Program-made: the position numbers and the translations under genes
Notes under the pieces: model-generated
Databases searched by the model: none
What the model was told of the DNA's origin: nothing
The model's input: only the letters and a program-made list of their open reading frames with translations
Assembly: GCA_021234155.1 (NCBI GenBank)
Contig: JAJEKV010000072.1
Coordinates: 3,974,407-4,038,406, forward strand
Length of the DNA stretch: 64,000 nucleotides
Direction of reading: 5' to 3'
DNA from: Isoetes taiwanensis
Lineage: Eukaryota; Streptophyta; Lycopodiopsida; Isoetales; Isoetaceae
Part shown: piece by piece, positions 17,480 to 18,880 of the stretch
Layout: every line of letters starts with the position of its first letter
Numbering within the stretch: the stretch's first letter is position 1

Positions 17480-17600
17480 CCCCTTTTAAACCCTCTTAAT
17501 AAAGCCGACGTCGGCATTTTATTTTAAATTTAACATGGAAAAACATTAAACTTTTAATTCAAAATAAAAAGCTTCTTTATTAATTATCACACAAAAAAAA
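17480..17600. other. AT-rich spacer downstream of the H3-like ORF
   Basis: T/A-rich block. The H3-like ORF ends in a run of phenylalanine codons caused by the A-run at about 17590 (T-run on the minus strand), which suggests readthrough into spacer rather than a genuine C-terminus. Confidence 0.45.
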
Positions 17601-18880
17601 AATATGTACAAATCACGGATCCCCGCGTGTAGGCTAAGGTTGCTCCCCGTATCCTACGGGCGAGGGCCAAATCCTTAGGCATTATGGTGACCCTCTTTGC
17701 GTGAATAGCGCCAAGGTTGGCATCACCAAAAGTGCTACCAAGTAGGCTTCGCTGACCTCTTGGAGCGCCAAAATTGCAAAGGTCCGGAACGGAGATCGGT
17801 CTTAAATTGCCGCGGCGATCTCCGTCGCCGACCTCTGAAAAGGCGGCTTCACGATCGGAAGGTCCGTGGACTTCGGGATTTCGCGGATCTCCCGCAATGC
17901 CACTATCACCGGTCGGAACCGATGAGGCTTCGGCGTGGCGAGGCCCCGACGATGTTGGCACCGTCTTAGCCCCAGCAACCGGCCGGGAGTTATCCACTCT
18001 CTGCTGCCTCCGGTCGGAGCTGGTCTTCTTCCCAAAAGCCCCGACAGTCTTTAACTTATCCTTGTATTGACTGCCGGCCTTATGAGCAACTCCCTTCCTT
18101 CGGAACCGCTGTCCGGATCGTGGTTTTTGGGGTCGAGCCACTCCCGGATGCACCTCCTCCTCCCCTGGTCCCGCTGATCCCTCGCCGGTCCCGCTCCTCT
18201 TGCTCCAACTTCTCGCGCTCTTCACCGAGGCTCTCCTCAGGTCTTCTTGGATCTGAGCAAAAAGTTGGGCTGCGGCACGGCGATTAAGTTCAGCGTGGTA
18301 CCTTTGTGGCCGCAGGCCCATATCTATCTGAATAGTAGTCAGATAGTCTATGCTAATGTCGGGGATCTCTCCCCAGACAAAGCTGTTGGAACCCTCATGC
18401 CATTGGTATGGGGAACCTCAATAAGCTCTGCCATCGATGGCCCGGCAAAGCCGTCTCAGAAATACCGGGTACTCCCTACCCGGGCTCTTTGTGTCGGGCC
18501 GCTCAATTCCCCGGTGGTCGTCTTCCCCGCAAAACCCTAATCCGGGTCGACTCCTCGTCTCCGACATCTTCCTCCTCGTATGGCCTTCTTGTTGGAGGAT
18601 AAAATTTGATGAGCATCATCACCATGTCGAGGTTGCTCAACAAGGGTATATATGGAGTGGCGTAGGTTCACGGGATGAGGAATGGCTCGAAGTGATAGAC
18701 GGGATATGGAATCCTATCATTGTTCTCAAACCTATTGACCAGCTCATCCAACAAGATGTCGATGAGGGTTGGGTCGGTAGCCATGTGCTTAGCAATCATG
18801 GCGTAGATCTCCACGATGCTCATGGTGGACGGGTCCGGAGCGCTCTTGGTAATAGCCATAGGGAATAGTGAGGCGCTGGC
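17587..18880 (-). CDS. Extra ORF A of the gypsy element: histone H3-fold protein with new N-terminus
   Basis: The minus strand between 17930 and 17644 encodes a histone H3 fold in two or three frames. Segments: [20 protein letters not shown] then STDL (alphaN), [10 protein letters not shown] (alpha1), [14 protein letters not shown] (alpha2) and [13 protein letters not shown]...LARRIRG (L2/alpha3). The last is essentially canonical H3. Loop 1 has H3 length and KTDLR in a third frame, so it is not CENH3-like. The canonical [10 protein letters not shown] tail is absent. Upstream comes a basic linker ([20 protein letters not shown]), an R/E-rich region ([20 protein letters not shown]) and an N-terminal domain from about 18850 ([20 protein letters not shown]). 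Frame breaks coincide with places where H3 would need CAG or CTG codons, so the gene may be intact in reality. It lies inside the LTRs in the element's sense orientation. Its role is unknown. Confidence 0.8.

Follow-up and report, generated by a model that had tools for sequence, protein, structure and literature searches.

Mobile elements that carry a histone H3 gene have previously been described in Dothideomycete fungi, where hAT DNA transposons have captured H3 (PMC6710886, PMC3538342). According to the parts of these two papers available to us, Pyrenophora holds 26 nearly identical recent copies, its H3-like protein (H3L) has tail insertions and is represented by ESTs, and the old copies in six Mycosphaerellaceae genomes are dead save for a host gene (PMC6710886, PMC3538342). 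A captured domain of another kind is found in orchids, where Ty3/gypsy elements carry an ORF for an AlkB-type m6A demethylase, and in the accessible text of that source, which covers a screen of 121 angiosperm genomes with 15 unusual domains, no histone is among the domains named (PMC9289625). The giant viruses Marseillevirus and Medusavirus encode their own histones, as stated in the available portions of the sources (PMC9145170, PMC11500106). As far as these excerpts go, it is already known that mobile elements can carry H3 (hAT) and that Ty3/gypsy elements can carry a captured domain (orchids). Our literature search, with most subscription journals outside its reach, found no LTR retrotransposon with a histone. 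What is unusual in the element described here is that the capture is old and took place in a retrotransposon, that the H3 is fused to a novel domain, and that the gene is strongly selected.

Like the fungal elements, the present locus belongs to a mobile element whose numerous copies bear an H3-like ORF, but those are described, in the parts available, as DNA transposons with terminal inverted repeats and, in P. fijiensis, an 8-bp duplication. Here we find LTRs, a 5-bp duplication and a reverse transcriptase (RT) instead, and no hAT domain in the pieces scanned against Pfam. Long purifying selection on the element-borne H3 is present here, whereas we did not find it in the accessible parts of the published account. 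With the orchid elements, from what is available of that report, the locus shares an LTR retrotransposon lineage in which a captured host domain has become fixed as an extra ORF, the difference being that the orchid domain is an RNA demethylase and ours is a histone. With the giant viruses it shares a parasite genome with its own histones; those, in the excerpts at hand, are DNA viruses that encode either doublets or the full set of four core histones, whereas here there is one H3-type protein in a retroelement.

The window analyzed here, a stretch of 64,000 nucleotides from Isoetes taiwanensis, contains a complete chromovirus LTR element on the minus strand (8137–21195), with LTRs, a 5-bp duplication, a primer-binding site (PBS), gag-pol and a chromodomain (Table 1). 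The LTR pair with its 5-bp duplication, the order of gag, protease, RT-RNase H and integrase, and the C-terminal chromodomain identify it as a Ty3/gypsy chromovirus. The PBS-like sequence directly after the 5′ LTR is one that we take to be of the tRNA-iMet type; Rfam and tRNA scans of the window gave no matches. A sequence-only reading of this DNA had described a complete element with an H3-like segment between the PBS and gag in the element's sense orientation, and the window sequence bears out both points: CTTTG lies on either side of the element, and a comparison of the LTRs gives 158 differences over 1560 aligned sites (K2P 0.109) and 32 frame-shifting gaps, of which one is an artefact of a boundary placed one base off. 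Both LTRs start with TGTGACG, and the 3′ LTR ends with CGTCACA while the last bases of the 5′ LTR are altered. The gag-pol region runs from about 15.1 kb down to 10.2 kb with many breaks, and its RT pieces give weak Pfam matches. In the possible ORF3 region there are opposite-strand open frames too, both in L013 and in L021, two related copies elsewhere in the genome (loci from our searches are numbered with the prefix L).

Table 1. Features of the chromovirus and its H3-bearing ORF, in window coordinates
Feature	Position	Strand	Basis or remark
5-bp target site duplication CTTTG, element 5′ side	21196..21200	-	Sequence
5′ LTR (TGTGACG...)	19611..21195	-	LTR pair
Primer-binding-site-like sequence gtggtatcgagagccgtg	19593..19610	-	Sequence; directly after 5′ LTR
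ORF1, decayed: MAITKSA... N-domain, linker, H3 fold	17644..18859	-	End-to-end alignment with P0020; 88% nucleotide identity to intact L013
ORF1 N-terminal domain (196 residues in L013)	18270..18859, lower end approximate	-	Without significant family match
H3 histone-fold domain, KPHRFRP to RIRG, over three frames	17644..17930	-	
ORF2, decayed	16023..17427	-	466 aa and acidic in L021; without Pfam or PDB match
Possible ORF3	15360..15811, ends approximate	-	147 aa open in L013, same sense
gag, decayed	13770..15090, ends approximate	-	Pfam Ty3_capsid and Retrotrans_gag matches in open L021 gag frame
pol, decayed: protease, RT, RNase H, integrase	10222..13800, upper end approximate	-	
Chromodomain, integrase C-terminus	10432..10578	-	Pfam Chromo 1.9e-08
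3′ LTR (...CGTCACA)	8137..9732	-	LTR pair
5-bp target site duplication CTTTG, element 3′ side	8132..8136	-	Sequence

Other repeats share the window. LTR-like repeats that are about 90–92% alike lie at 47–1440, 4593–6064 and 29033–30516, and they suggest that the chromovirus landed within an older element. A Ty1/copia-type element with long open frames occupies 59598–62931 (RVT_2 1.5e-30), a LINE-like reverse transcriptase lies at 26537–27769 (RVT_1 4.9e-10), and 34364–37500 holds three long open frames that are transposase-like by eye, HTH_23 being weakly matched by one of them.

The H3 homology was confirmed at 17930–17644 by tblastn (1e-17 and 4e-12) and against the Pfam Histone family, where the last part scores 5.2e-08 and the first part 0.0016, which is below the curated cut-off. 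PDB H3 chains match the H3 pieces at 1.7e-09 and 8.4e-09, and among solved structures the first piece is matched best by a chain of 8kcb that its depositors named Histone H3.1 or H3.2. In a frame-tolerant alignment, H3 scores 275, compared with 43 for the best of 15 shuffles. The idea that the fold lies in a single ORF does not hold for the window copy, where the H3 region is spread over three frames, reading straight from the start meets 2 stops, and the 276-aa frame at 17587–18417 covers no more of the histone than its final ~30 residues (29 by Pfam, 37 by phmmer). The long N-terminal region described in place of the H3 tail belongs, together with the H3 fold, to one conserved protein that starts at 18859. 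The decayed ORF1 formerly encoded about 410 residues, comprising a novel N-domain, a linker and a 99-residue H3 fold, and it differs from the intact ORF1 of L013 by 16 frame-shifting gaps as well as in sequence. If the LTR gaps are halved and scaled to 1.2 kb, simple arithmetic predicts ~12 breaks in ORF1, so decay after insertion is about enough to account for the 16 seen; the window ORF1 may have been intact at the time of insertion.

The extent of ORF1 was established with a relative. A query made of the window frame pieces, with X at the breaks, found the 373-aa protein P0020, encoded on an ENA contig, over 58% of the query (E 7.8e-33), and a frame-tolerant alignment of the window with P0020 runs from P0020 residue 1 to the end of the H3 fold. 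The same alignment method, with 15 shuffles each, gave scores for H4 and H2A downstream of ORF1 (14700–17600) of 35 and 33, compared with best shuffles of 39 and 43. H2B reached 50 there (best shuffle 40), in a match that is located in the lysine-rich H2B tail and that we attribute to composition. Within the H3 gene itself, H4 scored 47 (best shuffle 35) and H2A 36 (33), and in the 5′ stretch H2A scored 40 (35) and the N-part of P0020 scored 47 (35), all far below the 275 of H3.

The N-domain has no significant match in Pfam, NCBIfam or PHROGs, and no relatives of P0020 were found in viral and prokaryotic contigs. When the N-part was searched together with the first 15 residues of the fold, the best 120 of 241 matches consisted of P0020, P0071 and 118 other histone-domain proteins, and those 118 match over 5–31% of the query. 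An AlphaFold model of P0020 has a mean pLDDT of 50.9, which is too poor for a fold search. Two other long proteins came to our attention. P0046 (Logan, 490 aa, 16 contigs) has a C-terminal H3 fold behind a different N-terminus that has no similarity to the ORF1 N-domain (92 of 300 shuffles scored as high), and it may represent a second H3-bearing element. P0070 from Chara braunii (346 aa) is an odd protein with an H3-like C-terminal part and a weak match (E 4.3).

We searched 1,658,258,908 bases in 1110 contigs for further copies. P0020 gave 216 matches, at least 110 of which cover the H3 part, and 94 of those are stop-free in a ranking that favours stop-free copies. A plant H3 query gave at least 15 loci at 92–98% identity, which are ordinary H3, and at least 135 at 62–87%. 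Taken together, the two lists hold at least 199 non-ordinary H3 loci on 89 contigs, where 89 of the 199, added by the plant H3 search, are counted without a check for the N-domain. All of these are minimum numbers of loci, as scoring in the search is limited to the best candidates.

Ten long loci, mostly open frames with both parts listed, were read over 20 kb each as two adjacent stretches, and eight extra ORF1s, again mostly open frames, were chosen likewise from the P0020 match list. ORF1 adjoins related-element DNA in all ten long loci. LTR-like DNA lies upstream in nine (L027 has no LTR match), and gag, protease or RT follows downstream in the sense direction in eight; L015 has no gag-pol in the stretch read, and L025 has only the start of gag-pol, by DNA, followed by RT in the opposite direction. 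Five copies are complete, with LTRs 91.8–96.3% identical and their own 5-bp duplications (TCCAT, GTTCT, GCTGG, TTTTT and GCGTA). In L001, whose ORF1 is P0020-like, a PBS-like site precedes ORF1, and gag and RT follow.

The family can also be approached from the RT side, where a search with an intact RT gave 102 loci at 89% identity or more. A listed H3 locus lies 1–9 kb upstream in 24 of them, judged by place only with strand left aside, and these 24 are known positives rather than a sample. Among the remaining 78 we fetched 12 and read 3 kb upstream, a span beyond which an ORF1 farther out would be missed. ORF1 with its H3 fold is present in nine of the 12 and absent from three, where its place is taken by an LTR, by ORF2 only and by other DNA, respectively. 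Upstream of two such RT loci, L052 and L048, one has an LTR right before gag and the other ORF2 only; an LTR in that position leaves no room for an accessory region. Members without ORF1 therefore exist; taking the 12 as typical, some 80% of the 102 RT loci would carry it.

These counts bear on a late nested insertion, in which a host H3 gene or retrocopy landed in one element while its relatives lack the segment, as the sequence-only reading had itself considered. Its second half is partly true, as 3/12 fetched loci lack ORF1, but the insertion itself is contradicted by the ten long loci and the 9/12 fetched RT loci that have the same ORF beside related-element DNA, and on these grounds we reject it. 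An AT-rich imperfect direct repeat of ~43 bp on both sides of ORF1 (19074–19032 and 17586–17545) would fit an insertion, being matched by 0 of 500 shuffles under one scoring and 2 of 300 under another (blastn E 0.007), but neither a poly-A nor an own target duplication is seen in the sequence around ORF1, and the ORF1 H3 forms a clade apart from host H3. We regard such an insertion as the remotest of the explanations considered here.

In the H3 tree (49 rows and 99 columns, with many unresolved forks and bootstrap values that had not settled), the element H3s, P0020 and P0071 form one clade (97/94), separate from both host H3 and the CENH3-like rows. L001 groups with P0020 and P0071 (88/80), and the N-domain is common to both subfamilies. 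From this single clade, we conclude that the capture is old and that H3 was probably captured once, long ago. Plant CENH3 is similar in combining an H3 fold with an altered N-terminal tail, and we considered it as an identity for ORF1. It was rejected: the element fold has the length of host H3 with no longer loop 1, it keeps PFQR or PFQK, and in the tree it falls outside the rows, few in number, that are CENH3-like. ORF1 and RT distances are not congruent among 8 copies (Mantel r −0.19, with values as high in 3003 of 5000 permutations), a comparison in which decay makes L013 and L017 look too distant in RT. L009 and L011 are ~50% different from the other long loci in ORF1 and 6–17% in RT when the decayed L013 and L017 are left aside. 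As ORF1 distances do not track RT distances, the accessory module may be exchanged between lineages, or it may be fast-evolving.

Selection was examined in 19 intact ORF1s, which come from a ranked search favouring open frames. The main figures are for 17 close copies, with the distant L009 and L011 set aside; L001, L003 and L039 were left out as broken, and L002, L004, L005 and L008 because they are the same places as L009, L011, L013 and L015. Pairs with saturated dS were dropped, leaving 113 of 136 for the N-domain and all 136 for the other parts. Mean pairwise dN/dS is 0.031 in the H3 fold, 0.065 in the N-domain and 0.244 in the linker, at a mean dS of 0.74–1.18 across the parts (0.74 in the H3 fold), and a codon model gives 0.040, 0.104 and 0.258, respectively. 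Compared with one reference, L021 or L009, and 7 copies each with usable dS, ORF1 has a dN/dS of 0.08–0.10, ORF2 0.05–0.15, RT 0.05–0.25 and gag 0.08–0.41, where the gag and RT frames are often broken. The intact ORF1 copies are under strong purifying selection. The lineage thus selects for ORF1 as it does for the element's own genes; that ORF1 is a selected gene of the element is close to certain in our judgment.

A host gene fragment carried along without selection, as in transduplication without function, is correspondingly very improbable. The fungal hAT H3 copies, which in one clade are all dead save for the host gene in the part of the account available (PMC6710886), show that such passengers can occur. 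A dN/dS of 0.03 at a mean dS of 0.74 in the H3 fold argues against one here, as do the 94 stop-free matches among at least 110, in a ranking favouring such copies, and the single clade that includes another source. A passenger pseudogene is rejected by the low dN/dS in both the pairwise and the codon-model estimates. The central claim of the earlier reading, a Ty3/gypsy chromovirus with a captured H3, thus stands at the level of the family, on 10/10 long loci, 9/12 fetched loci and purifying selection.

The intact proteins have 393–421 residues (19 copies), with an N-domain of net negative and a linker of net positive charge in the five copies measured. The H3 fold has 99 residues in 19/19, the same as in host H3; in three intact copies it matches Pfam at 1.3e-40 to 2.1e-41, and the intact L013 ORF1 matches a PDB H3.3 chain at 2.5e-52. 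R49, R63, R72, R83, K115, R116, T118 and K122, which we take to be DNA-contact residues, are invariant in all 19 domains. By comparison, S86, S87, V89, G102, E105, T107 and I124 are unlike host H3 in 19/19 and Q125 in 18/19, and chaperone-contact positions lie on this side of H3. The canonical tail motifs looked for are largely absent: TKQT, KSTGG and APRK occur in 0/19 and an ARTK start in 1/19. ARKS is present in the linker of 5/19 (L019, L023, L034, L035 and L040) and ARKT in that of three more (L017, L036 and L038). ARKS resembles the motif around H3K9 and K27, and it is possible that the linker ARKS or ARKT is a tail mimic.

With its nearly unchanged fold, the ORF1 protein would pair with host H4, and we think it likely that it enters nucleosomes. 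ORF1 could instead be a selected element gene whose H3 fold works elsewhere than in the element's chromatin, either tying up host H4 or histone chaperones (a decoy or dominant-negative) or packing DNA in virus-like particles. The conserved fold and basic residues would suit such roles, as would the differences from host H3 at 86, 87, 89, 102, 105, 107 and 124 (19/19) and 125 (18/19), and an N-domain of this size may point away from ordinary nucleosomes. Set against this, a decoy has no obvious need to keep nearly all DNA-contact residues, and we hold these roles to be rather unlikely.

The chromodomain had been proposed as a reader of H3 tails, with self-marking, mimicry or variant nucleosomes as putative functions. 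A chromodomain is indeed present at the integrase end, but its role as a reader is doubtful: two of the three presumed aromatic cage positions are non-aromatic in the window copy and in the six copies read. This touches on another way in which ORF1 could serve the element, namely that ORF1, built into chromatin or bound to it, guides the integrase and its chromodomain to certain sites. The terminal chromodomain and the linker motifs (ARKS in 5/19, ARKT in three more) would suit such an aid to integration, but the motif is missing from some copies and two of the three presumed cage positions are non-aromatic, which makes this reading improbable.

Directly adjoining the H3 ORF is ORF2 (L021:4422–5822), which is conserved, at the dN/dS given above. 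The L021 protein contains 76 D+E and 40 K+R and is thus strongly acidic, and it has no match in Pfam or PDB. ORF2 is possibly a chaperone-like partner of the H3 ORF.

Our preferred explanation, which we consider somewhat probable as a whole, is that the window ORF1 is a decayed copy of a stable accessory gene in a chromovirus lineage. An H3 gene was captured, its tail was exchanged for a novel ~200-residue domain and a basic linker, and selection has since maintained the gene in first position behind the PBS, ahead of the acidic ORF2 and of gag-pol. After entry into nucleosomes, the protein, with little of the host H3 tail left, would be unable to take most marks, which would leave the element's DNA less open to silencing and so help the element to be expressed or to persist. 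The N-domain may direct the protein to its site or bring in a partner, with ORF2 perhaps assisting as an acidic helper. Action on the element's own chromatin is the least certain step and is put forward tentatively. The ARKS motif in 5/19 linkers argues against a simple loss of silencing sites. A stronger version, in which the element would make a dedicated chromatin from its H3 variant and ORF2, perhaps as chaperone, with nucleosomes closed to silencing marks in a histone arms race of long evolutionary standing, is speculative and on present evidence unlikely.

Few host proteins are as conserved as the core histones, and retrotransposon silencing operates largely through marks on the H3 tail. 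With a retrotransposon lineage that keeps its own tail-exchanged H3, one can test directly whether mobile elements counter or redirect silencing by supplying the nucleosome itself. Element-type H3 loci (at least 110, or at least 199 on the wider count) outnumber the ordinary ones listed (at least 15), so an effect on host chromatin is also worth looking for. L052 and L048 are useful for asking whether ORF1 can be lost or supplied in trans, and ORF1 may serve as a marker for tracing the H3-bearing element lineage across plants.
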